From a virus, in the IMG/VR virus record IMGVR_UViG_3300032299_000618, positions 1 through 26,530 of that record: DNA of 26,530 nt, one strand, 5' to 3'. Positions 2,265-24,468 of this stretch are shown here, in pieces (the stretch's first letter is position 1; each line of letters begins with the position of its first letter). The notes beneath the pieces are model-generated. The model saw nothing but the letters and a program-made list of their open reading frames with translations, did not search any database and was not told the origin of the DNA. The translations under genes were made by a program, and so were the position numbers.

Positions 2265-3740
2265 TTAGCGATTCCCTAATTGTAATTTGGTATCAAAAGC
2301 GGAGAATAAATCTTTATATTTACGTTGACCATCAGCAGACTTTTGCCACTCTTTAGTGCCATAAAGTATTTTAGTAAATTCGTTATCATTAGCAACACGA
2401 TAATTTGAACCATCTTTAACGTTCAATGCTGAAACAAGTAATGGGTCATCATTTGGAATAGCGTCAGCGTTTCTACCAAGAATTGTACTCATAAAGTATT
2501 TGTATCTACCAGTAAAAGTATCTAAATCTTTTCCAGCCTTTAAATCATCAGCAACACCAAGGTAAATCTTTGCTGAGTTTTCACGAAAACCTTGAATGAT
2601 TTCTTTTTTCTTTTGCTCTCTAATAGTAGCATCTGATTCAGAAAGAATATTAACAACAGCGTTTTGTAATTCTGTGTTAGAAAGTTTATTTATACCATTA
2701 AGTTTTGCTAAAGATTCAAGTTCATCAGCAATACTATCAACAATACCTGTACGCTCTTTAGTTATATCAATCTTTTTAGCAATCTCTTGTTGCAAGAAAC
2801 TTGCTTTCTCAATAGCACTTAAACCACCCTCGGTAATGGTTGTGCCATCAGCATAAGTTTTTGTAACAGTTGGTTGACTTTTTTCAAAGTTACGAAAACG
2901 ACTAATGAAGCCATCTTTTTCTTGAGAGGTTGCTGCTCTACCAAAGTTAATTTTGTAAGCATTGTCAATCATAAGCACAGCATCGTTTAAATCAGTTAAG
3001 TTAATTGCTTTAGATATACTTGATAAAACATTGCCTGAACCTGCGCCTGTGCCACTAGGAGTAATGCCTGACCTAAGTTTAACGTAGTCAGTAATAGTAC
3101 GGTTTCTAAGTTGAGGGTTAACTTGATACGCTGCTTCATTATATGCTGCTTGATATGCAGTATAAAACTTTTTATCTGCTATAAAGTTAATGTTTTTTTC
3201 AGTACCATAAAAGCCACCTAATGATAAACTTTTAATAAAGTTATTAAGTTCACCATTTTTTTGCATCTTAACAACTTCAGGAAAAACTTGACTTTGAAAT
3301 TGTTCAATTGTCATCTTACCATATTTAGCGTAAGCAACTTGGCTTTGTGATAAACTTTGTTCTTCTCCAGTATAAACATAAGGAAAAGGATTAGGTTGAT
3401 AACCAGTTCCACCTGTATTGTATTGAAACTTTGGTTGAGCAGGAGGAGGAGTTACTGTTGGTGTTGGAGTTTTCTTTATTAACTCTTCTGCAACAACATA
3501 AGTTCCAGTTCTTTCATCATATTTTGTTGGAACAACATACTGTAATGGGTTTTGCCCACCAGTAGAACTTGTTGTTGCTCTCTTAAAAGCATCGCCAATT
3601 TGTTTTTTAATAGTAGGCGAAAAGACTGAACCAGCAGGGTAAACTGTACCAGGAACCCATTGCTCTTTGGTTCTATTGTAATCTTGGTATGCCCCAATTT
3701 GGGAGTTCCATTGTTGGAGAACAATTATATCATTAGCCAC
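2265..3740 (-). CDS. Probable virion-associated protein, unrecognised family
   Basis: 491 residues with a GTG start overlapping the TAG of the upstream giant gene (TAGTG); GAGG about 10 bases upstream is the likely Shine-Dalgarno. A small N-terminal domain (VLQQWNSQIGAYQDYNRTKE, then VYPAGSVFSPTIKKQIGDAF) leads into a Pro/Thr linker (KKTPTPTVTPPPAQPK, about residues 89-104). A long, mostly helical and polar remainder follows, with INFGRAATSQEKDGFISRF around the middle. No catalytic motif or membrane segment was recognised. Tight coupling to the 1903-residue protein suggests the two are made together and act in the same particle, perhaps in DNA ejection. Confidence 0.55.
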   Translation of the reverse strand: MANDIIVLQQWNSQIGAYQDYNRTKEQWVPGTVYPAGSVFSPTIKKQIGDAFKRATTSSTGGQNPLQYVVPTKYDERTGTYVVAEELIKKTPTPTVTPPPAQPKFQYNTGGTGYQPNPFPYVYTGEEQSLSQSQVAYAKYGKMTIEQFQSQVFPEVVKMQKNGELNNFIKSLSLGGFYGTEKNINFIADKKFYTAYQAAYNEAAYQVNPQLRNRTITDYVKLRSGITPSGTGAGSGNVLSSISKAINLTDLNDAVLMIDNAYKINFGRAATSQEKDGFISRFRNFEKSQPTVTKTYADGTTITEGGLSAIEKASFLQQEIAKKIDITKERTGIVDSIADELESLAKLNGINKLSNTELQNAVVNILSESDATIREQKKKEIIQGFRENSAKIYLGVADDLKAGKDLDTFTGRYKYFMSTILGRNADAIPNDDPLLVSALNVKDGSNYRVANDNEFTKILYGTKEWQKSADGQRKYKDLFSAFDTKLQLGNR

Positions 3741-6700
3741 TATTTATTAACCTCAAGACTCTTAGCAAATACTGATTGGAAAAGGATGTTAAACTTTGGA
3801 TTACTTGTAACTAACTGTTGTGCAAGATTATTTAAATCATTTCTAAATGATTCAACTTGCCAATCTTTTAACTTTAATGGTTCTTCACTAGCAAAACCAA
3901 GATTGTTTGCTTGTTCAATAGCATTGTCATATGCTGACAAAAACAATACGGTTTCATTGTAAATAGGTGAATCTTTGAATATTGGGTCAGCAACTGCTTT
4001 TCTTAATTCAACAAGTTTATTTTGTCTAGTACCAACCCTTGTTGTACCAATAGGTTCAGCACCACCAAACATATTCTTTAACTGTTGTTGTTGTGCTTGG
4101 AACCAGTCATCAGTATATTCGTTATCAATTTGTGATTGACGTATTTGTGATAATGCTGCTTCGTAAACTAAACGAGTAGCACCATCTTCTAATTCTTCTG
4201 TGTTTAAATTACGACGACGATTTGATTGAAACTTAAAGTATTCTCTGGAGAACTCTCCGCCAGGAAAAAGAAGTGGAATAATATCTGTAGGACCTTCAGC
4301 ATATGCTGCTGCTTTTTCACCATACTTTTCTAAGAAACTATATGCTTCCTCAGTTGGTTTACTTGGTCCACCAGTAGTAACTGACATAATTGACAAAATG
4401 TTTTTAACACCAAAAGTATTAGCAAACTCTACAACAGCAGCATCATAACTATCTGGATACTTTTCTGTACGGATAGAATCAAATGCTTGATACAATGCTG
4501 TTTGGCTCATAAATGTGCCATCTTTGGCTAAGTTGTTAATAACTTTTCTTGGTGCAGAAGGTAATACTGATTGGAACAATGCTGTAAATACTTGGTCCCA
4601 TCTTGCTATACGTGCAGCATCTTTGAATAGTTTATTTTTTGTTGCTTCGTCAGTAAAAGGGTTTTCGCCATACTCACCTGTTGATGCTAAGTAGTTAGCC
4701 CAAGGTGCAGTTTTGCGTGCAGTTTTAAGAGTTGCAGATGCTGGATTAAGGCCATCAAGTAATTTGCCTATCCAAGCAGGAACAACATAATCTAGTGCTG
4801 TGCTTTCTGTTTTAGCATAAGGTGTTATATATGTTTTAATAGCAGTAGGTAGTATTCCAAATCCTTTATCCATTTCTAAAATAGATACAGGGATTTGTGC
4901 CATTGGACCAAAACCTGGAACAAATGGGCTAACACCAGAGAAAGCAATGTTTAAGTTTTGAAAAGATGAACTTAATTGTAAGCCTTCAACATCTGGTGCA
5001 TTTGGAACTGCGCTTAACAAACTACCAAGTAAACTTCCAGCAATAGGATACTTAAAACTTAATTCACCTGTTGAATCATCTTTGTATAAAAAACCTTGTT
5101 GGTTATCGTGATTCATACCAAAAATATTGTAAATATTACTTGAACCTGGTTGCTGTAAACCACGTAATAGTTGTCCAGCACGATATACTTTAACAGGGTT
5201 CTGTACTGCTAAATCAACCCATTTTTGTAATGTATTATATTGTGCGTTAGCAAATGGAAAGATAATACGTAAAGCAAACAAAAAGTTCTTTTGTCTTGCG
5301 GCATCATAGAATAGTTCTTTAACAGCATCACTTGCTCTGGCTGCTGCCATATTATCTACTTCACGAAGTGACAAAGTTCCTACAGCACCACTCTTTTCAG
5401 CCTTAGCAAGAGCAGTTTCAATGGTCTTATATACACCTTTTTTGTTACTTAAAGTAATAGGAACATTACCTATTTTAAGTGTTAGTAGGCTTTTATCTGC
5501 TTCAAGTTTAAGTTTACGTAAATCTTCTACACCAAGTAAACCAGCATAACGTGCTGCGTAGTCCCAATACTGCATACGGTATTCAGGTCCAAGAGAGAAT
5601 TTGTTTTCTATTCTGTTAGAGTTCTTAAAGAACCAATCAACACCTTTATCGTATGAACTGATTGCACCTTTACCTGTGATAACACTATCTTCAATTTTAC
5701 CTTTGGTAACAATGTTTTTCATATTTAACTTACTATCTGCTGCAGCAAGTTCTTCACCAAATTTATTTAAACCTGATTTGTTAATAATCTTTATGCCTTT
5801 AGCATTTGTAGTCATAACTTTAGGTAATGCTAATAGTGTTCCATCGGCAAGAGTTGTTTTTTTCTTTGACAATAATTGTATAAGTTCAGTATTGTTACCA
5901 GTGACAAGTTTAATTGCTGCAGATACGCTGTATTCTGGGTCAAATAAGTATTGACGTAAGCCATCATCCGTTGCAAATATGCGTTCAAATGGTTTAACTC
6001 CAGCATCATCAGCAACACTGACACCTTTCATTGTGTCAATCTGTGTTTTTCCTGGACCATTTTTAAAGTATTCAACAATAGCATCTTCACGGCTAATACC
6101 TTTAGGAAGTGTTGCAAGAAAATTTTCTGGCACACCACCAGCAACTATGCGAATAATTGGGTCTGTGCTTAGACGACTAAGTTCTTCACCAAGGTATCTA
6201 TGGAAATCTTTCTCCCCATACTTAATATCTTTCCAAACTTGTGATGCAACTTTAGCGATACGTGGGTCAAAGCGTGACATATGACGTGTCATAAATGTTT
6301 GATATTCTGCTATTGCAGCAAGACCTTCGTCAGCCATATCATCAGTTAATTCGGAATTAAAGTTTTTACCAAATACGTTATTGTCATACTTTGAAATCTT
6401 TGAAGCAAGGCGTTGCATAGCATTACCTTTAGGGTTAGAAATAGACATAGCAATATAACTAAGTGGGTGGTTTAGTATACTGCTATGACCTGCTAAGTAC
6501 TGACGTACTTGCATTTCTCCAAGGTTTCGAAGAACATATGATACACGGAAAGCAAGTTGAAAACTTCTCCAACGGTCACCAAACTCTGAGTTAATCCAGT
6601 CTGATGCTACTGCTGTTCCGTGTTTTACTTTCAATTCTTTTGCTTTAAGTACAGCCTTACGTAATTCTTTAGATGAAGGCAGCATAAACACATCATCTAA

Positions 6701-9451
6701 TAGTTGATGTGGGAAGAATGGTATGGCTTGGTTTACACCGTTAGCCATAAATACTTCAGGTAAACCGTTAACTGCTTCTCTACCAACAAAGTAGTTTGAT
6801 GCTATTTCACGGTCACGTTTTAATATGAGTGAACGAACGTTTAGATTCTTTGCAACTTCAGGGTCTAAGCCTTCTCTGGTTGCTAGATTTTTCATTAGTT
6901 CGTCTAGTTTAGTTAATAAAAAGTTTGAACGTTCAGAGTTTGTTTTAAGTAAACCGTAACCATTTAATGTTGTTGTTATGGCTTTTTCGCTGTATCCAGC
7001 AATTTTCATCCAGTCATCTAAACCACGTGCAACTGAATCAATGTCATCTAGTTGTAATATTGCTACGTTTCTAAAGTTACGTCCGTATCCTTTAGATAAA
7101 CGTTCAACAACTCTGATAAGTTTAGTGTCAAGTTGTGCAACAGTTGGCATAGCAATGCCTTGTTTTTCAAGTTTTGCTATTTCTGCAATACTTCTATTGC
7201 CTAGCAACCCAACCTTTAACGGTTCACTTACTTTTTCAGGGTTCTTACCAATAAATGTAATAAGTTTATTTAGAACATCTTCAGGACTTTTTGCTAATGA
7301 TAGTTCTTGTGCAAGGTTAAAATCAATTTTTGTACCAAACAAACGCCAGATACGTTCAGGGTTACCAGCATATGTTGCTATAACTTTAGCAAGCATCTGT
7401 GATTTGCTACCTAAAAAGAACTTTGCTGCCATATCGCGGTCAAGTTTCATACCTTCGTCTAGGTAATCTGCTATTCCTGCTTCAGTTTTTAACGCTTCTT
7501 CATATTTTTGTGAAAGCGTAACAATGTTTTTCTTGTCTCTAGCAACTTGTTTGCCAAGTTTTTTAGTTTCATTGGCTAATGATGCACGTTCTTTGTATAC
7601 TGTTTCAGCAGTTTTAACGCCTAGACGACTATTAGCACGTACTTGTTTTGCTTCAGATAAAAGATTGTTAACGTCTGTTGCCGCATCAAGGAATGGAATT
7701 GTTGAGTCAACTTCTTTTAATGCTATTTGGTCTAATGGTATTGAACGGTAAACAATTTGTGGACGGTTAAAGTAAACAAACCCACCTTCTTTACCCCAGA
7801 TAGAACGAACACCTTGAACTCCATCAAATCCTACATTTTTTAATGAGAAAATAAATTCTAAACCAAAATCATCAGCGAGTTCTGTGTGTAAGTATTTAAA
7901 TACGTCACCAAATGTTACTTCAGGGTTAGCAAGCAATGTTTCCATTGATTGCAATACTTCTTTTTTAACAGCCTTATCATATCTTTTAGTATATTTAAGG
8001 TTTTCTCCAAAACGAGTAAATAAATATTCTGTAAGTGTGAGTCCTTCTTTACTAAGAAGGTCATCACCAAATTGAAAGTCGTAAATTTTATCTGTTAATG
8101 AAATAAGGTTTGGTTTTACTTTTCCATTCCAACCAACAAGTAGTGTTTTATCACCACGTGCACCAAATACAACGTTTTGATTACGTGCAGTTATTGGGGC
8201 AATAGCGTTATCTGTAAAAATTTGTCCATCAAAAAGTGTTTTAGCGTTATCTGTGTCAGCCTTTAGTCGTCCTGCTGTGGCTGATACTACTGCTGGGTCC
8301 TCTTGACTTATTTTTTCAACAATCTTTGCAACGTTTTGTGGACTAAAAGCCTTTTGTAATGTTTTGCTACCATTAATAGCAGCAGAGGTATCTTTAATAT
8401 CCTCAAATGTTTCAACATCTTTATAGTTAGCAAGTCTTGCTTTATCTAAATCTTCAAATGCAGCAGTTTCTATTTCTCTACCTTTAGCAAAGAGTCTACC
8501 TTCTGCAAGGTTTGCTGCTGTTTCGCCTGCTGTTTCTGAGGCTTTTTGTAATTCATCTAAACTTTGTGATACAACTGTAGGAAGTTTATCTGCTTCTCCT
8601 ACTTTTGTTGCAAAACCAACACTTGCTTTAAGTGCTTCTTCTGCTTTAGATACACCACGAAGTGCTTTAGGTAATGCACCACCTGGAACATATGTTGATG
8701 GGTCTAATGCTATTGTTTTGATAGCATCAATTGTTCCTGAAACAATATTGTAAGCGTTTGTGTTTGGGTCAATGCCAACACCGTTGGCTGCGTAACGACC
8801 AAATGTAAAAGCCTCGCCGTTAATTTTACCGTATGCTGATGCAGCATCGGCTTGTGCGCGACCTACTGAAGAGTTTGGGTCAACAAAGAAACCTGAACCT
8901 GAATCTACTTTACCGTCATCAAGAAAATCTGCCCATAGTTGGTTGAATGTTACATCAGGGTTTGCGAAAGGTAGAGGGTTTGTTGTTGGTGTTTCACCGT
9001 GTGCTCTAGCGTATGCGCGTCGTGCTAAGGATTCAGTGTATTGTACTGGTGCATTGAATGTTGCAAATCCTCCACGAACAAATCCTTTAAATAAACCGTA
9101 TAAAGAATCTCTTACTCCACCTTTTTCTTTAACAGAATCTTTAAGTGAAGCAATTTCTTCATTACTTTTTTGTAATTGTGCAAGACCATCTGCTGATGCA
9201 AGACCTTGCATACCTGGTGTTGTTGAGTTCATCCCCATTGATGCTGAACTTACAATTGTGTCTAATGATAAACCTGGCATATTTTTTGTCAGGTCAGCAA
9301 TGTTATCTGAAATCATCTTCCCAGTTGTTGGGTCAAGACGTGTTTTTAATTCTTCTAAAGCAATTCTGTTAACTTCAGATGTTGCTAGACGTGGAATAGA
9401 GTTGTATGCAACATCTGGTATTTCGTAAAATTGTGCGTTTCTGCCAACCAT
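3740..9451 (-). CDS. Giant internal virion / ejection-type protein, 1903 residues
   Basis: This is the largest gene in the window. The N-terminus carries structural-looking sequence (FVRGGFATFNAPVQYTESLA). Around residues 540-566 the pattern VGFDGVQGV, then GGFVYFNRPQIVYRS, resembles the closing motif of ADP-ribosyltransferase-like or polyvalent-protein domains (GYDG…VVF-PxQI). Helical coiled-coil-rich stretches follow, for example KKLGKQVARDKKNIVTLSQK. The last third has hydrophobic patches (ALRIIFPFANAQYNTLQKWV and YPIAGSLLGSLLSAVP) seen in large phage proteins that enter or line the cell envelope. Length and location between portal and scaffold suggest a protein packaged in the head and ejected with DNA, like T7 gp16 in concept; homology is not claimed. 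ATG overlaps the preceding TAA. Confidence 0.6.
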   Translation of the reverse strand: MVGRNAQFYEIPDVAYNSIPRLATSEVNRIALEELKTRLDPTTGKMISDNIADLTKNMPGLSLDTIVSSASMGMNSTTPGMQGLASADGLAQLQKSNEEIASLKDSVKEKGGVRDSLYGLFKGFVRGGFATFNAPVQYTESLARRAYARAHGETPTTNPLPFANPDVTFNQLWADFLDDGKVDSGSGFFVDPNSSVGRAQADAASAYGKINGEAFTFGRYAANGVGIDPNTNAYNIVSGTIDAIKTIALDPSTYVPGGALPKALRGVSKAEEALKASVGFATKVGEADKLPTVVSQSLDELQKASETAGETAANLAEGRLFAKGREIETAAFEDLDKARLANYKDVETFEDIKDTSAAINGSKTLQKAFSPQNVAKIVEKISQEDPAVVSATAGRLKADTDNAKTLFDGQIFTDNAIAPITARNQNVVFGARGDKTLLVGWNGKVKPNLISLTDKIYDFQFGDDLLSKEGLTLTEYLFTRFGENLKYTKRYDKAVKKEVLQSMETLLANPEVTFGDVFKYLHTELADDFGLEFIFSLKNVGFDGVQGVRSIWGKEGGFVYFNRPQIVYRSIPLDQIALKEVDSTIPFLDAATDVNNLLSEAKQVRANSRLGVKTAETVYKERASLANETKKLGKQVARDKKNIVTLSQKYEEALKTEAGIADYLDEGMKLDRDMAAKFFLGSKSQMLAKVIATYAGNPERIWRLFGTKIDFNLAQELSLAKSPEDVLNKLITFIGKNPEKVSEPLKVGLLGNRSIAEIAKLEKQGIAMPTVAQLDTKLIRVVERLSKGYGRNFRNVAILQLDDIDSVARGLDDWMKIAGYSEKAITTTLNGYGLLKTNSERSNFLLTKLDELMKNLATREGLDPEVAKNLNVRSLILKRDREIASNYFVGREAVNGLPEVFMANGVNQAIPFFPHQLLDDVFMLPSSKELRKAVLKAKELKVKHGTAVASDWINSEFGDRWRSFQLAFRVSYVLRNLGEMQVRQYLAGHSSILNHPLSYIAMSISNPKGNAMQRLASKISKYDNNVFGKNFNSELTDDMADEGLAAIAEYQTFMTRHMSRFDPRIAKVASQVWKDIKYGEKDFHRYLGEELSRLSTDPIIRIVAGGVPENFLATLPKGISREDAIVEYFKNGPGKTQIDTMKGVSVADDAGVKPFERIFATDDGLRQYLFDPEYSVSAAIKLVTGNNTELIQLLSKKKTTLADGTLLALPKVMTTNAKGIKIINKSGLNKFGEELAAADSKLNMKNIVTKGKIEDSVITGKGAISSYDKGVDWFFKNSNRIENKFSLGPEYRMQYWDYAARYAGLLGVEDLRKLKLEADKSLLTLKIGNVPITLSNKKGVYKTIETALAKAEKSGAVGTLSLREVDNMAAARASDAVKELFYDAARQKNFLFALRIIFPFANAQYNTLQKWVDLAVQNPVKVYRAGQLLRGLQQPGSSNIYNIFGMNHDNQQGFLYKDDSTGELSFKYPIAGSLLGSLLSAVPNAPDVEGLQLSSSFQNLNIAFSGVSPFVPGFGPMAQIPVSILEMDKGFGILPTAIKTYITPYAKTESTALDYVVPAWIGKLLDGLNPASATLKTARKTAPWANYLASTGEYGENPFTDEATKNKLFKDAARIARWDQVFTALFQSVLPSAPRKVINNLAKDGTFMSQTALYQAFDSIRTEKYPDSYDAAVVEFANTFGVKNILSIMSVTTGGPSKPTEEAYSFLEKYGEKAAAYAEGPTDIIPLLFPGGEFSREYFKFQSNRRRNLNTEELEDGATRLVYEAALSQIRQSQIDNEYTDDWFQAQQQQLKNMFGGAEPIGTTRVGTRQNKLVELRKAVADPIFKDSPIYNETVLFLSAYDNAIEQANNLGFASEEPLKLKDWQVESFRNDLNNLAQQLVTSNPKFNILFQSVFAKSLEVNK

Positions 9452-16744: not shown

Positions 16745-17926
16745 ATGAGTTCTGTGGATGAAGTCGAAGCACCAAGCACACCAGTTATCTGTACTACTCC
16801 TCGTTGTACTGCTGTTGTGTCTGATTCTATAGATGATATAGATGATTCAGATGCAATAGAATATGATGGCGATTGGTACTGTGATAGTTGTGCAGCGTTC
16901 TGTGATGATTGTAGTGATTCTTACCTACCTGATGGTGGGTGGAGGTCTAACAATTCTTACTGTGATAGTTGTTTAGAAAACTACTTTCATTGTGAGAGAT
17001 GTAGTGACTTAACACACAACGACGACCACGCTAATGTTGGTGGTGATTCTTGGTGCAGTGATTGTTTATCGGATGCACATTACTGCGAGAGTTGCGATGA
17101 ATACTACAGCGACCCTTGTCGTAGGTGTAATGGCTCAGAGTTTCTAGATAATTATAGTTGGAAACCTGAACCTGATTTCTTTATGCAACCTAATTCACTA
17201 GAAGCATACTCACGATACGACCTCAGGGAATTAAAACTTTCTAACGAAATGTTTTATGGTCTTGAGATAGAGGTTGAAAGTATGGGCAACAATATACGCA
17301 ATGCTCTCAGCAAGTTGAGCGAGCATTTCGGTTCTGTTGCATACTTCAAATCAGATGGCTCACTCGAAGAAGGATTCGAGATAGTCACACATCCAATGTC
17401 ATATGAGTTTGCTGTCTCAGTTGACTGGACAATCCTTAACAAGTTAAGGGTTATGGGTTTCAGGTCTTGGGATACTAAGACTTGTGGTATTCATATCCAC
17501 TTATCTCGTAAGGGTTTCAAAGATAGGTCTCACCTGTGGAGGTTTGCCTATCTAATCAACACAAGTGAAAGACAATGTGTTGCTATTGCTGGTCGCTCGT
17601 CTCTCCAATGGTCTACATTTGCTGGTCAAAAGGAGAAGGCAGGCAAAGTTATATTAGGTAAGGACTACAACCCTGACCGATATACTGCTATCAACCTGTG
17701 CAATAGCCAGACAGTAGAAATCCGTATGTTCAAGGGTTCACTCAAACCTGAGCGTGTCCTTGCCAACATACAATTCGTGGCATCCATCGTGGAATATACA
17801 AGGGATATAACTATCCCTGATATTACTGTTGGTGCTCTGACTTGGGATACTTATCGTATCTTTGTTGAGGAAAATCAAGATAAATATAAACACATACACA
17901 ACCTAATGGTTGAGAAAGAGGTATAG
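16745..17926 (+). CDS. Amidoligase (glutamine-synthetase-fold COOH-NH2 ligase) with N-terminal zinc-ribbon array
   Basis: 393 residues behind AAAGGAGGTGA. Residues 46-128 carry seven CxxC pairs (46/49, 53/56, 73/76, 83/86, 104/107, 114/117, 125/128), a tandem zinc-binding array. The catalytic part begins at FYGLEIEVES (about 170-179), then SDGSLEEGFEIVTHP (203-217), CGIHIHLSR (247-255) and VEIRMFKGSLKPERV (324-338). These Glu, His and Arg motifs match the phage/bacterial amidoligase_2 family, predicted to join a carboxyl group to an amine using ATP. The next gene, four bases on, is a glutamine amidotransferase that can supply ammonia. The substrate (protein, peptide, cell-wall or nucleotide-linked) is unknown; the zinc array may hold it. 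Confidence 0.85.
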   Translation: MSSVDEVEAPSTPVICTTPRCTAVVSDSIDDIDDSDAIEYDGDWYCDSCAAFCDDCSDSYLPDGGWRSNNSYCDSCLENYFHCERCSDLTHNDDHANVGGDSWCSDCLSDAHYCESCDEYYSDPCRRCNGSEFLDNYSWKPEPDFFMQPNSLEAYSRYDLRELKLSNEMFYGLEIEVESMGNNIRNALSKLSEHFGSVAYFKSDGSLEEGFEIVTHPMSYEFAVSVDWTILNKLRVMGFRSWDTKTCGIHIHLSRKGFKDRSHLWRFAYLINTSERQCVAIAGRSSLQWSTFAGQKEKAGKVILGKDYNPDRYTAINLCNSQTVEIRMFKGSLKPERVLANIQFVASIVEYTRDITIPDITVGALTWDTYRIFVEENQDKYKHIHNLMVEKEV

Positions 17927-17929
17927 AAT

Positions 17930-18754
17930 ATGTGTTTGTTGCACATAGCAGAACGGAACGAATCACCAACATATGAGCAACTGAAGTGTGCGTGTTCCAA
18001 TAACCCAGATGGTTTTGGTTACGCTGTGCACACAGGTGACTCAATCATTACAGGTAGAGGTCTAGATTACGATAGTGTTATCAGACGATTTCTTAATGTA
18101 AGAGAGAGATACTCTGATGGGTATGCAATGTTTCACGCGAGACTTGCAACTCACGGAGGTATCAACAAGAACAACTGCCATCCGTTCAGGGTGGGTGGTA
18201 GTGACAAGGTTATTCTCGGTCACAATGGCATCCTCCCTGTTGATATACCAAAGGGTGACAATCGTTCTGATACTAAAATCTTTGCTGATGAGTTACTGCC
18301 TAAGGCTGGTATCGAATCACTAGATGATGATGTATTCTTTGAAGACTTGGAAAAGTGGGCAGGTGGTAGCAAGATTGCTATCCTGAACGCTAGTCCCAAG
18401 TTGGATTGCGAATTGTACATAGTAAACGAACAACTAGGTGACTGGGATAAGGGACTGTGGTGGTCTAATAGTTCATACAAGTATGACTATACTCGGTGGG
18501 CTTGGTTACCTTCCAGGAAAACAAAGTCAGATGGTGATGTAGCATCCGTCTATGATGAGGATGATTTAGATTCGTCACTTGATTTGACTTTGTGTTATGA
18601 GTGTGGTGCTACATTCACAGAGATGGCAATGATTACAGGTGTATGTGAAACCTGTGAGACCTGTATAGAATGTTACACGCACACAGATTCTTGCTTGTGC
18701 TATCAAGGTAGTGCGTCAAGCAGGGATAGTATATGGAAAGAGAAAACATTCTAA
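17930..18754 (+). CDS. Class II glutamine amidotransferase with C-terminal cysteine cluster
   Basis: 274 residues. Cys2 directly after the initiator Met is the expected N-terminal nucleophile. Family motifs follow: NPDGFGYA (25-32), MFHARLATHGG (67-77), NNCHPF (81-86) and ILGHNGIL (95-102). This Ntn-hydrolase domain releases ammonia from glutamine. Residues 222-257 hold eight cysteines (222, 225, 239, 242, 245, 248, 255, 257), probably zinc ribbons, absent from simple amidotransferases and echoing the array on its partner. It starts four bases after the amidoligase stop, with GAGG upstream, so both are made together. No synthetase domain is fused, so the amidoligase is the likely acceptor enzyme. 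Confidence 0.85.
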   Translation: MCLLHIAERNESPTYEQLKCACSNNPDGFGYAVHTGDSIITGRGLDYDSVIRRFLNVRERYSDGYAMFHARLATHGGINKNNCHPFRVGGSDKVILGHNGILPVDIPKGDNRSDTKIFADELLPKAGIESLDDDVFFEDLEKWAGGSKIAILNASPKLDCELYIVNEQLGDWDKGLWWSNSSYKYDYTRWAWLPSRKTKSDGDVASVYDEDDLDSSLDLTLCYECGATFTEMAMITGVCETCETCIECYTHTDSCLCYQGSASSRDSIWKEKTF

Positions 18755-19764: not shown

Positions 19765-19965
19765 TTGGATTGGCGTGGCATACCAACAGCAGGCTGCCCT
19801 GAATGTGGTTGCTTCTGGCTACGCATATCTGCCGTCTTTGACCCCGACACTTATGAGATTGAAGTGTGGGGTCTTGACGATGCTGAGTGTTATATGTGTG
19901 GTGCTAAACTTACAGCACCTTGCCCAGTTGACCATCCTGATAACGAACAATCAGAGACTTACTAA
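19765..19965 (+). CDS. Small zinc-ribbon protein (TTG start)
   Basis: 66 residues. Translation appears to begin at TTG behind AAGGA, three bases after the previous stop. CPECGCFWLRI (11-21) and CYMCGAKLTAPCP (42-54) form a two-knuckle zinc ribbon. Its TAA overlaps the TAG of the leftward transglycosylase, so the two genes converge with no space for a terminator. Confidence 0.6.
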   Translation: MDWRGIPTAGCPECGCFWLRISAVFDPDTYEIEVWGLDDAECYMCGAKLTAPCPVDHPDNEQSETY

Positions 19966-20297
19966 TACCAACCTTTATAGTTATGAAACCTTAACGCTGA
20001 ACAAGGTGTGCCATACCTTTGTTTAATGTAATCAAACCCTGCTTTAACTTGTTCAGGAACTCTAGTTCCTGGTTTAGTTTTCAAGACTTGAAACAAACCA
20101 TATGCTGACGACTTTGGATTATCTGCATAAGGATTCCAACTTGACTCACGAAAAATTAGTTCATCTAAACAATCCCATTGACGCTCAGACCAACCTTCAA
20201 ACTCTGCTACCTTACGCACATATGAACGAGATGATTCCTCTGACCAACGAGAAGGGGCTTCAGGTTGCAATAGTGAACCAAACAATAACTCTAACAT
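19962..20297 (-). CDS. Lytic transglycosylase / endolysin-type lysozyme domain
   Basis: 111 residues. WDCLDELIFRESSWNPYADN (41-60), SSAYGLFQ (63-70) and DYIKQRYGTPCSAL (89-102), with terminal GWY, match actinobacterial transglycosylase domains of the SLT / resuscitation-factor-adjacent type; Glu51 in RESSW is the likely catalytic acid. It would cleave peptidoglycan at lysis. No signal peptide or second binding domain was seen. CTGGAGG supports the ATG. It is a lone leftward gene inside rightward early genes, with a 22-base dyad 39 bases upstream matching that before terminase, which suggests it is switched on with the late genes. Confidence 0.8.
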   Translation of the reverse strand: MLELLFGSLLQPEAPSRWSEESSRSYVRKVAEFEGWSERQWDCLDELIFRESSWNPYADNPKSSAYGLFQVLKTKPGTRVPEQVKAGFDYIKQRYGTPCSALRFHNYKGWY

Positions 20298-20471: not shown

Positions 20472-20573
20472 CGCTGGGGTTTGCTGACCTCTTTCACCCA
20501 GCGTACTTCAAAGAGGTAACAGGTTGGGTTTCTCCTCCGTTCTCGCCTGTTACCTCATCTAATTCTTGGAGGA
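20472..20573 (+). promoter_or_regulatory. Structured leader of the DNA-metabolism operon
   Basis: Three pairings can be read: CGCTGGG (20472-20478) with CCCAGCG (20497-20503), ACCTCTTT (20487-20494) with AAAGAGGT (20510-20517), and GAGGTAACAGG (20513-20523) with CCTGTTACCTC (20546-20556), an 11-bp perfect stem. The second and third compete for GAGGT. The loop of the third contains TCCTCC (20533-20538), complementary to the Shine-Dalgarno GGAGGA (20568-20573). This could hide the start site or act as a switch. No known RNA class was recognised. Confidence 0.45.
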
Positions 20574-20576
20574 ATT

Positions 20577-20777
20577 ATGTTAAAGGTTAACGGCTACGAA
20601 GTCCCAGACCACGTGTCTTATTCAAGTTTAACTACTTGGTTAGCGTGTGGATATCAGTACTACCTCTCTCGTATTCAAAAGGTTGAGGAACAACCTGCTG
20701 TGTGGTCGCTTGGTGGTAGTGCTGTTCACCTTGCAACAGAGAACTATGATTTACAGAAATGGGAGTCAGAGCAATGA
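20577..20777 (+). CDS. Cas4/RecB-like nuclease, N-terminal fragment
   Basis: 66 residues behind TTGGAGG. SYSSLTTWLACGYQYYLSRI (14-33) is the opening of the actinophage Cas4-family exonuclease; Cys24 corresponds to the first iron-sulfur ligand. WSLGGSAVHLATENYD (43-58) is the following family helix. The frame then stops, and the matching remainder is encoded at 21154-21813. The intact family is about 280-300 residues, so this is the first quarter. The TGA overlaps the next ATG (ATGA). It may be a subunit of a split enzyme or a disrupted remnant; it has no catalytic residues alone. Confidence 0.75.
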   Translation: MLKVNGYEVPDHVSYSSLTTWLACGYQYYLSRIQKVEEQPAVWSLGGSAVHLATENYDLQKWESEQ

Positions 20778-21163
20778 ATGAACAAGAACTGTTTGATAAC
20801 TTAGCGCAACTTATACCTGACTTAAAGAAATCAGAGAATGAGTATTCAACTTTTGATTGCACATCAGAAATACTTAATGCTTTCATTGAATTAAAATGTA
20901 GGCACACACATTACAATACTTTGTTGATTGAGAAATCAAAGTATGCTCGCCTTGTTGGTGAAGCAAGATTAAAAGGAATGATTCCGTTGTACATTAACTC
21001 AACACCTTTAGGTGTTTGGTCATTTAATCTGGACAAGTTTGATGTAGTGTGGTCAGAGAAAGATAACCTGCCTGTTACAACAGAGTTTGAGAACACTGAT
21101 AAGACAACTAAGGTAATAGGTTTTCTTCCCACTAAAGAAGGCGACCAACTATTTTGGAAATAA
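20774..21163 (+). CDS. Inserted ORF, probable small PD-(D/E)XK-type nuclease
   Basis: 129 residues from the ATG at 20774; an earlier in-frame codon at 20759 is less likely. STFDCTSE (25-32) and FIELKCRHTHYNT (37-49) give the D…E-x-K pattern of restriction-fold nucleases (Asp28, Glu39, Lys41), followed by LLIEKSKYARLVGEA (50-64) and PLYINSTPLGVWSFNL (71-86). Similar text is found in phage proteins of unknown role, as far as I recall. It lies exactly between two halves of the exonuclease with overlapping start and stop codons, as a free-standing homing endonuclease might. Nuclease activity and mobility are inference. Confidence 0.5.
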   Translation: MNEQELFDNLAQLIPDLKKSENEYSTFDCTSEILNAFIELKCRHTHYNTLLIEKSKYARLVGEARLKGMIPLYINSTPLGVWSFNLDKFDVVWSEKDNLPVTTEFENTDKTTKVIGFLPTKEGDQLFWK

Positions 21164-21813
21164 ATAAACTTTGGGATGATGCTTGGGCTGAAGAAGTCAA
21201 CAACATCAGACAAGTACACGGTGAAGATTTTCAATTAGAAACTTTACGTCAATCAGTACGCACAACTAAGGCTAACCCTGATGGTGAGAACGCTAAGTGG
21301 TGGTACGAGAATGGTTTAAAGTTTGTTGAGTCTTGGGTTCAATGGCGTGAAGGTTCAGGTTGGAAAATCTGGACAACACCTCAAGGTAAACCTGCTATTG
21401 AATTGAAACTTGAAATTGTAGTCGGTGGTGTCTATATGTTAGGTGCTGTCGACAGAGTATTTGTTACACCAGATGGTGAACTTGTAATCCTGGATTTGAA
21501 AACAGGAATGAGAACACCACAATCAGACTTGCAATTATCCATATACGCCTCAATGATGGAACGCGCTATAGGTGTGCGCCCTTCATATGGTGCATACTGG
21601 ATGGCAAGGCAAGGAACAACAACACCACCAATATCACTAGAGGCGTTGAGCCTACAAAAACTAGATGAACTTGTGGCAATGTTTCAGAAGGCTAGAGAAA
21701 ACAATATCTACCTTCCTAACTTTGACACTTGTAAAATGTGTTCCTATCAGGAACATTGTTATTGGAAGAATGGAAGTCAAGCACTTCCGATTGGAGAAAT
21801 AAATGTCAACTGA
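21154..21813 (+). CDS. Cas4/RecB-like nuclease, C-terminal catalytic fragment
   Basis: 219 residues, apparently from a TTG overlapping the preceding stop. It holds AIELKLEI (81-88), GAVDRVFVTPDGELVILDLK (97-116) and SDLQLSIYA (124-132). The likely metal and motif residues are Glu83, Asp100, Asp114, Lys116, Gln127 and Tyr131. TCKMCSYQEHCYW (192-204) has three cysteines, C-x2-C-x5-C, the rest of the iron-sulfur site; the fourth is in the 66-residue fragment. The family trims DNA ends in recombination. All catalytic residues are intact, which favours a working split protein over simple decay. AAGAAGG lies about 11 bases before the TTG. Confidence 0.8.
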   Translation: MEINKLWDDAWAEEVNNIRQVHGEDFQLETLRQSVRTTKANPDGENAKWWYENGLKFVESWVQWREGSGWKIWTTPQGKPAIELKLEIVVGGVYMLGAVDRVFVTPDGELVILDLKTGMRTPQSDLQLSIYASMMERAIGVRPSYGAYWMARQGTTTPPISLEALSLQKLDELVAMFQKARENNIYLPNFDTCKMCSYQEHCYWKNGSQALPIGEINVN

Positions 21814-23321: not shown

Positions 23322-23643
23322 GCGTAAAGGCTCAGGTGCTGAGCGAGATGTTGTTAAATACCTACAGAAAAAAGGGTGGAAGTATGCAGAACGCAGGTTG
23401 GCAGGGGATAAAAACGATAGGGGCGACATTGCTGGCGTACCTGGGGTTTGTTTTGAAATCAAAAACCACAAAACGTTCGACTTGGCAGGCTGGACCAAAG
23501 AGTTAGAAGTTGAAATCAAGAACGCTAAAGCAGACACAGGTGCTGTGATACATAAACGTCGTGGCACAGGTGATGTTGGTAACTGGTATGCAACAATGCC
23601 AGTTGAAACTCTGATAGAGTTATTGAAGAAAGCAGGATACTAA
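23305..23643 (+). CDS. Holliday-junction resolvase (PD-(D/E)XK family)
   Basis: 112 residues from the ATG at 23305, which has GGTGA upstream; a GTG at 23299 is an alternative. SGAERDVVKYLQKKGW (10-25), GDI (40-42) and CFEIKNHK (49-56) provide Glu13, Asp41, Glu51 and Lys53, the Hjc-type active site. GAVIHKRRGTGDVGNWYATM in the second half is typical of actinophage resolvases. It would cut four-way junctions made during recombination-dependent replication before packaging. The stop overlaps the primase ATG. Confidence 0.78.
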   Translation: MSTPSKRKGSGAERDVVKYLQKKGWKYAERRLAGDKNDRGDIAGVPGVCFEIKNHKTFDLAGWTKELEVEIKNAKADTGAVIHKRRGTGDVGNWYATMPVETLIELLKKAGY

Positions 23644-24026
23644 TGGTCTCTCCAATCTCTAGACTCCTGTCACATTATGGTGCTAAACAAGTACCAACAG
23701 GGAGTGGTTGGAGAAAAATTAACTGCCCATTTCACCCAGATAGACACGCATCAGCAACAGTTAACAATGATGTAAATGCTTTTAACTGTTTCGCTTGCGA
23801 AGTATCTGGTGACTTATACAAAATAATAATGATACAAGAAGGGATTGATTTCCGTGAAGCAAAATCAAGAGCAGAAGAGATTACTGGAACAAGCGACATC
23901 ACATTATCAACAAGCAGTAAACTTGGCAGAAGGGTATCTAATCAACAGGGGACTATCTCTGCAAGACGCAGAGTATTTCCGCCTGGGGGTAGTACACCAA
24001 CCACTCGTAGGTCACGAGGCTTATGA
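23643..24026 (+). CDS. DNA primase, zinc-binding (CHC2) part
   Basis: 127 residues. CPFHPDRHASATV (28-40) and FNCFACEVSGDLYKII (47-62) form a C-x2-H…C-x2-C zinc finger (Cys28, His31, Cys49, Cys52), as at the N-terminus of DnaG primases. Residues after about 80 become Arg/Ser/Thr-rich (SKLGRRVSNQQGTISARRR) and do not resemble primase. The TOPRIM half lies in the +1 frame and overlaps this gene by about 170 bases. Either two proteins cooperate, or a +1 ribosomal shift joins them. Confidence 0.8.
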   Translation: MVSPISRLLSHYGAKQVPTGSGWRKINCPFHPDRHASATVNNDVNAFNCFACEVSGDLYKIIMIQEGIDFREAKSRAEEITGTSDITLSTSSKLGRRVSNQQGTISARRRVFPPGGSTPTTRRSRGL

Positions 24027-24468
24027 AGGTCGTCTTGCTATCCCTTACATAACACCAGCAGGTGTTGTTGATTTACGTTTCCGTGCAATCAATCACGAGG
24101 AACCAAAGTATTTAAGTTTACCTGGCTCTGAAACAAGACTGTATAACGTTAACGCATTGTTCAAAGCAACCGATTGGATTGCTGTATGCGAAGGTGAAGT
24201 AGACACAATCACTTTAACTAAACTTGGTATCCCAGCAGTAGGTGTGCCAGGTGTTAAGAACATTAAGTCACATCATTACAGAATCTTGGCTGACTTCCAA
24301 CGTATCTATGTGTTTGCTGATGGTGACCCTGCAGGTAAAGAGTTCACTAAAGAACTTGCACGTAAAGTTTCTGGTGTTACACCTATTGCAATACCAGAAG
24401 GTGAAGATGTTAATAGTCTATTCACTAAGCAAGGTTCAGATTGGTTCAAAGGAAAGGTAGCAGCGTAG
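23854..24468 (+). CDS. DNA primase, TOPRIM catalytic part
   Basis: The frame opens at a TTG (23845), but the Shine-Dalgarno AAGAAGGG (23836-23843) is 10 bases from a GTG at 23854, preferred here (204 residues). A helical start (KQNQEQKRLLEQATSHYQQA) leads to GRLAIPYITPAGVVDLRFR, the TOPRIM acid EGE in VCEGEVDT and the DGD motif in VFADGDPAG. These chelate metal for RNA primer synthesis. It needs a zinc domain to find template, supplied by the overlapping gene. No helicase domain follows; the ATPase is separate upstream. Confidence 0.82.
   Translation: MKQNQEQKRLLEQATSHYQQAVNLAEGYLINRGLSLQDAEYFRLGVVHQPLVGHEAYEGRLAIPYITPAGVVDLRFRAINHEEPKYLSLPGSETRLYNVNALFKATDWIAVCEGEVDTITLTKLGIPAVGVPGVKNIKSHHYRILADFQRIYVFADGDPAGKEFTKELARKVSGVTPIAIPEGEDVNSLFTKQGSDWFKGKVAA

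Follow-up and report, generated by a model that had tools for sequence, protein, structure and literature searches.

A putative two-chain Cas4-like exonuclease of actinophages and the changing genes at its junction

A survey of Cas4 proteins reports four cysteines in all members, and the word 'split' does not occur in it (PMC5704561). In Sso0001 one of these cysteines is N-terminal and three are C-terminal, as at the viral locus described here, and substitution of Ala for any one of the four yields insoluble protein (PMC3466216). Both Sso0001 and the Argonaute-associated Cas4 ACE1 have a fold like that of L194, a fused relative of the proteins that we describe, although they are single-chain proteins and no CRISPR or Argonaute link is seen at our locus. 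Among the actinophages, GaugeLDP gp69, Remus gp82 and Pacnes 2012-15 gp37 (pfam12705) have the same domain and motifs as the two ORFs of interest, and the cas4-like genes of mycobacteriophages and gordoniaphages lie upstream of a gene for a DnaB-like helicase, as they do here. The actinophage pfam12705 nucleases are nonetheless one polypeptide, whereas at this locus there are two, with genes between them.

Two kinds of interrupted phage gene offer useful comparisons. The RecB/Cas4-like nuclease of C1 mycobacteriophages carries inteins (PMC5050341), a case of mobile DNA within a member of the same nuclease superfamily; the C1 intein lies in the PD-(D/E)XK motif and is spliced out to give one chain, whereas at our locus the three ORFs lie in differing frames, which rules out an intein. 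In phage Aeh1, nrdA is split by mobE, and Aeromonas phage 25 and 44RR have a gene 43 divided into 43A and 43B (PMC2988022). These resemble our case in that a DNA enzyme of a phage is divided in two and an endonuclease gene lies where the parts meet, but they concern other enzymes, and here we find a clade-wide fission, many junction genes and a divided metal-cluster site. For gene 43 the authors considered that the endonuclease may have invaded a gene that was already split (PMC2988022). A phrase search of the open-licence literature found no report of a split Cas4, nor was any split metal-cluster nuclease of this family met with in the papers searched.

Organization of the locus

The window, by which we mean the whole stretch of DNA analysed, is the 26,530 nt of IMG/VR record IMGVR_UViG_3300032299_000618 (39.6% GC). 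The presence of a WhiB gene (PF02467) points to an actinobacterial host, and the relatives of this virus suggest a link with freshwater Nanopelagicales. Three ORFs follow one another on the + strand, each in its own frame and slightly overlapping the next (Table 1), and re-reading the sequence bore out the coordinates, frames and stop/start overlaps given in a preliminary description of this DNA. The layout is not an assembly artefact, since the independent contigs L002, L003 and L015 match it at 93-100% identity. ORF1 and ORF2 overlap by ATGA and ORF2 and ORF3 by 10 nt, so that 376 nt, including one whole gene, separate ORF1 from ORF3. The ORF3 start codon in the window is TTG, which we count against the interpretation favoured below.

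Table 1. Features of the split cas4-like locus, in window coordinates
Feature	Position	Strand	Basis
Shine-Dalgarno-like GGAGGA, 5' of ORF1	20568..20573	+	sequence reading
ORF1 (66 aa), putative small chain of the two-chain Cas4-like exonuclease	20577..20777	+	frame 3; PF12705 E 2.9e-5
ORF2, 129 aa, predicted PD-(D/E)XK-fold passenger gene	20774..21163	+	frame 2, ATG 20774
Shine-Dalgarno-like AAAGAAGG, within ORF2 3' end, 5' of ORF3	21134..21141	+	sequence reading
ORF3 (219 aa), putative large chain of the two-chain Cas4-like exonuclease	21154..21813	+	frame 1; PF12705 E 2.4e-11

Neighbouring genes match those for a DnaB-like helicase, a RusA-like resolvase and a primase (Pfam and PHROG), a neighbourhood that suggests a role for the Cas4-like pair in replication or recombination. 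The DNA primase is itself encoded by two overlapping + strand ORFs in different frames (23643-24026 and 23845-24468), one with the CHC2 zinc ribbon (PF01807) and one with Toprim (PF13155). At 16745-18754 (+) an amidoligase-like gene (PF12224) adjoins one for a class-II glutamine amidotransferase-like protein (PF13230), and a 1903-aa ORF lies among the structural genes at 3740-9451 (-).

Division of a Cas4-like exonuclease between ORF1 and ORF3

ORF1 and ORF3 match PF12705 in consecutive pieces, at profile positions 1-50 and 52-246 respectively, and both exceed the cut-off of 22 bits, with scores of 24.6 and 44.5. Consecutive matches are also seen to PHROG 1870 (E 2.9e-49 for ORF3), with ORF1 matching PHROG 69/1870 and ORF3 also Cas_Cas4 (E 1.1e-5); a PDB sequence search with ORF3 gave weak RecB-type matches only. 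Two further profiles annotated 'exonuclease' are short, PHROG 31737 (146 aa, matched by ORF1) and PHROG 3953 (186 aa, matched by ORF3), and may hold other split Cas4 halves. A genome-contig scan for cellular copies gave 10 pattern matches, none of which was confirmed.

The key residues are likewise distributed over the two ORFs. ORF1 has Cys24, the putative first ligand of a predicted metal cluster, together with His51, Glu55 and Asp58; His51 lies in the sequence GGSAVHLATE, which we take to be RecB-type motif I. ORF3 has Glu83, Asp100, Asp114-x-Lys116, Gln127, Tyr131, Cys193, Cys196 and Cys202. The cysteines are thus placed as the preliminary description proposed, but its statement that all of the PD-(D/E)XK residues are in ORF3 does not hold, since the motif-I His (with Glu55 and Asp58) is in ORF1, so that the active site, like the four-cysteine site, is shared out between the two ORFs.

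Relatives were collected from IMG/VR scans with ORF2, ORF3 and ORF3 alignments, and from protein searches of phage records, and were sorted by whether both parts share one open frame. After removal of identical pairs there are at least 129 complete split and at least 14 fused examples; retrieval was based on similarity, and these proportions are therefore neither a census nor frequencies in nature. Among the matches listed, Cys24, His51 and Asp58 of the small chain are kept in all 129 split pairs and Glu55 in 128 of them, while in the large chain each of the residues named above is kept in 129 of 129. Both the PD-(D/E)XK catalytic set with its motif-I His and the arrangement of one N-terminal and three C-terminal cysteines are thus complete in every listed pair, although divided over two chains. 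What is missing is the single-polypeptide form, which is customary for the family but lies outside the profile definition: at least 129 distinct pairs are encoded by two genes. The lowest identity among split representatives is about 37% for ORF1 and about 35% for ORF3, and the conservation of these residues is therefore old.

The RecB/Cas4 fold was recognized on the fused relative L194 rather than on the pair itself; the L194 model (pLDDT 85.6) matches the Cas4 ACE1, AdnA, Dna2, AddAB and Cas4 SSO0001 in Foldseek. Mapped onto this model, the break lies between two helices, that of motif I (52-72) and the one after it (80-99), in a loop whose length differs among fused relatives.

Age of the split and turnover of genes at the junction

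In a tree of 56 representative rows, one clade of 47 rows (support 96/90) includes 46 that are split, the fused relatives other than L194 fall outside it, and two changes between the split and fused states suffice. L194 (143-991), the only fused cas4 within the split clade, is on a long branch and may have arisen by re-fusion or be an ancestral form that the tree misplaces; a single-sequence search for its close fused relatives returned L194 alone, and an alignment search found a separate fused clade. Four cultured phages have the single-gene form (Gordonia Remus, Propionibacterium Pacnes 2012-15, Mycobacterium GaugeLDP and Elephantoon) and these, with the other fused relatives, agree with the earlier view that the family is normally one protein. 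The cas4 fission was probably a single event in the ancestor of a freshwater actinophage clade. Two members of the split group are in culture: records OX376640 and OX376641 are those named LanE43-AprE7 and LanE43-AprF5, and the Planktophila phages E7 and F5 have been isolated and lyse their host (PMC10202952). Each genome has one cas4 place, with the split pair as overlapping genes.

The interval between the halves varies, among the matches listed, from an overlap to 841 nt. Half of the split tree rows (23 of 46) have no occupant, and these include overlapping ATG/stop pairs and in-frame TAG-TTG arrangements; in L217, L219, L220, L221 and L197 the halves are in one frame, with a single TAG and, immediately after it, a TTG start. 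The occupants form 13 BLAST families, or 12 if two that match PHROG 18407 are merged, and include the ORF2 family, a DUF7004 protein, the PHROG 18407 proteins, a PHROG 35836 transglycosylase (in L185, L186, L189 and L195), small CxxC proteins and several short unknowns. In most cases checked the interval is taken up by the occupant ORF, which overlaps the halves. The tree calls for no fewer than 14 occupant changes, as against at most two between split and fused. L137, the nearest relative of the window on the tree, is split around a gene unrelated to ORF2, and ORF2 is found between the halves in one subclade only, the other split subclades being without it there.

Two observations on junction genes may be recorded here. 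The PHROG 18407-like junction genes of L137, L139, L142, L147 and L060, which match or resemble that profile, share a conserved E-[VI]-R motif that recalls another family of small nucleases. In the window an SLT transglycosylase-like ORF, the same kind of gene as the PHROG 35836 occupant, lies near the split gene on the opposite strand (19962-20297, -).

ORF2 has no Pfam or PHROG match at E up to 1, and so cannot be placed in the Hjc sequence family, and a PDB sequence search gave no convincing match. Its AF2 model (pLDDT 88.9) nevertheless has as its best PDB matches in Foldseek the archaeal Hjc Holliday resolvases (prob 1.0, TM 0.5-0.65, about 0.6), with 13-18% identity in the best matches, and is closer still to models of uncharacterised phage proteins. 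The predicted fold is thus Hjc-like and of the PD-(D/E)XK kind used by homing endonucleases, and Asp28 and Glu39-x-Lys41 are invariant, in agreement with the initial reading of the middle ORF as nuclease-like. At least 54 ORF2-related loci were found, most of them elsewhere in their genomes, where they adjoin genes that we read from their sequences as sigma-factor-like, FmdB-like or nucleotide-modification genes. L010 and L059 are 99% identical over ORF1, a DUF7004 gene and ORF3; what distinguishes them is the clean presence or absence of ORF2 at one site, the flanks of which are 680/686 and 647/648 identical. Between the window and L015, ORF2 has a dS of 0.22, as against 0.04-0.05 for the two halves. 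Both comparisons fit independent movement or recombination of this gene, and ORF2 may be mobile and a candidate homing gene. To judge by the ORF2 tree, its entry into the junction may have been single or repeated.

It could be supposed that the first fission, deep in the clade, was made by a mobile element that was later replaced or removed; this could have been a homing endonuclease, which might be an ancestor of ORF2, or else an intron since lost. Known split phage genes arose in this way (PMC2988022), and the junction attracts genes, one of them, ORF2, with a nuclease fold. No trace is common to all split lineages, however, and in many split pairs the halves overlap one another, with nothing inserted; the window has no Rfam intron, and an intron between the halves is also rejected there since ORF2 fills the interval and leaves no non-coding room. 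A plain stop and start within a variable loop would suffice, and we consider an origin through a mobile element unlikely.

The preliminary description proposed more specifically that ORF2, as a homing-type nuclease, had inserted into an intact cas4 and left a functional two-chain enzyme. The predicted fold of ORF2, its clean presence and absence in L010 and L059, its synonymous divergence, which differs from that of its flanks, and the phage precedents (PMC2988022) are in keeping with this. But most of the clade is split without ORF2, with no insert or with other genes at the same place; the polymorphic site in L010 and L059 is between the DUF7004 gene and ORF3 and not in an intact cas4; and no intact cas4 allele closely related to the window is present among the relatives found. 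The split is also kept where the ORF2 family lies at another place in the genome, as in contigs 3300047561_000687, 3300027754_000498 and 3300045999_001152 and in phages E7 and F5. The preliminary description had held that a middle ORF with no nuclease fold, encoded elsewhere by relatives, would speak against such an insertion; its relatives are indeed encoded elsewhere, but ORF2 does have a predicted nuclease fold. The split is thus wider than ORF2 and independent of it, unlike one of the mobE/nrdA type, and with ORF2 elsewhere in relatives we conclude that ORF2 was not the cause of the split in this lineage. This part of the proposal is largely refuted, and we regard it as very unlikely, whereas a conserved and very probably functional two-chain enzyme stands. 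ORF2 is best seen, from these comparisons, as a later and replaceable passenger that would have entered the boundary between two existing genes.

Selection on the two halves and a model for their assembly

Purifying selection prevails in both halves, with dN/dS mostly 0.03-0.25, and mostly below 0.16 in ORF1, where two pairs have values of 0.68-0.85 on little synonymous change. The pairwise distances for one half correlate with those for the other (r 0.85), which is partly expected from linkage alone. A Shine-Dalgarno-like motif precedes 91 of the 129 ORF3 starts, compared with 118 of 645 internal control starts, among the matches listed. To judge by their sequences, the split halves are separate genes, each translated independently, and the site between them is one of gene turnover.

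That ORF3 alone is a working nuclease, with ORF1 a remnant or a protein of unrelated role, is an idea prompted by the D...D-x-K core of ORF3 and the mere 66 aa of ORF1, but it is hard to reconcile with the invariance of Cys24, His51 and Asp58 and the low dN/dS of ORF1, and we find it highly improbable. Since Sso0001 becomes insoluble on loss of any one cysteine (PMC3466216), the small chain should by analogy be needed by the large one. Nor do we expect the halves to be joined in expression into one chain by frameshift, bypass or splicing: although some relatives overlap in different frames or have the one in-frame TAG described above, a whole gene lies within the 376 nt between the window halves, the intervals elsewhere hold unrelated contents and reach 841 nt where the halves do not overlap, the window has no Rfam intron, and in most loci the ORF3 start is preceded by its own Shine-Dalgarno-like motif, so that this carries very little weight. 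Sequencing or assembly error, or gene decay, might be suspected of a metagenomic window but can be dismissed, since the split recurs in many independent contigs and in two cultured, isolate-sequenced phages, and both halves show the marks of purifying selection.

The explanation that we consider likely is a fission of cas4 that gave a probable obligate heterodimer, with the junction as an insertion site and ORF2 as its present occupant. The fission would have occurred, probably once, in the variable surface loop after the motif-I helix, and the ORF1 and ORF3 polypeptides would be translated separately from adjacent genes and would assemble, most probably, as an obligate heterodimer. To this the small chain would supply Cys24 and motif-I His51, and the large chain the metal-binding D...D-x-K, the Gln/Tyr and the other three cysteines, with a putative Fe-S cluster and active site completed between the chains. 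The gene boundary would, after fission, have become an insertion site with a turnover of small genes, and ORF2, itself gained and lost, would be the present occupant. Of this account the gene layout, the conservation, the selection, the tree and the turnover of occupants are borne out by the data, and we infer the heterodimer, the shared cluster, the nuclease activity and the mechanism of ORF2 mobility. A more tentative extension, possible but as yet doubtful, is that the pair is obligate with a cluster complete only on docking of the small chain, that subunit supply gates the nuclease during infection, and that the junction is permanently open to the insertion of small phage genes, of which some are mobile nucleases.

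The two-chain reading is directly testable with the pair from the cultured phages E7 and F5. The locus also provides a case, with a tree and controls, in which an endonuclease gene at a split gene would be a late occupant and not the cause of the split, a question not settled for the divided gene 43 of Aeromonas phages. A long-lived, clade-wide fission running through the cluster ligands and the active site alike would further serve as a natural test of how such an enzyme assembles.
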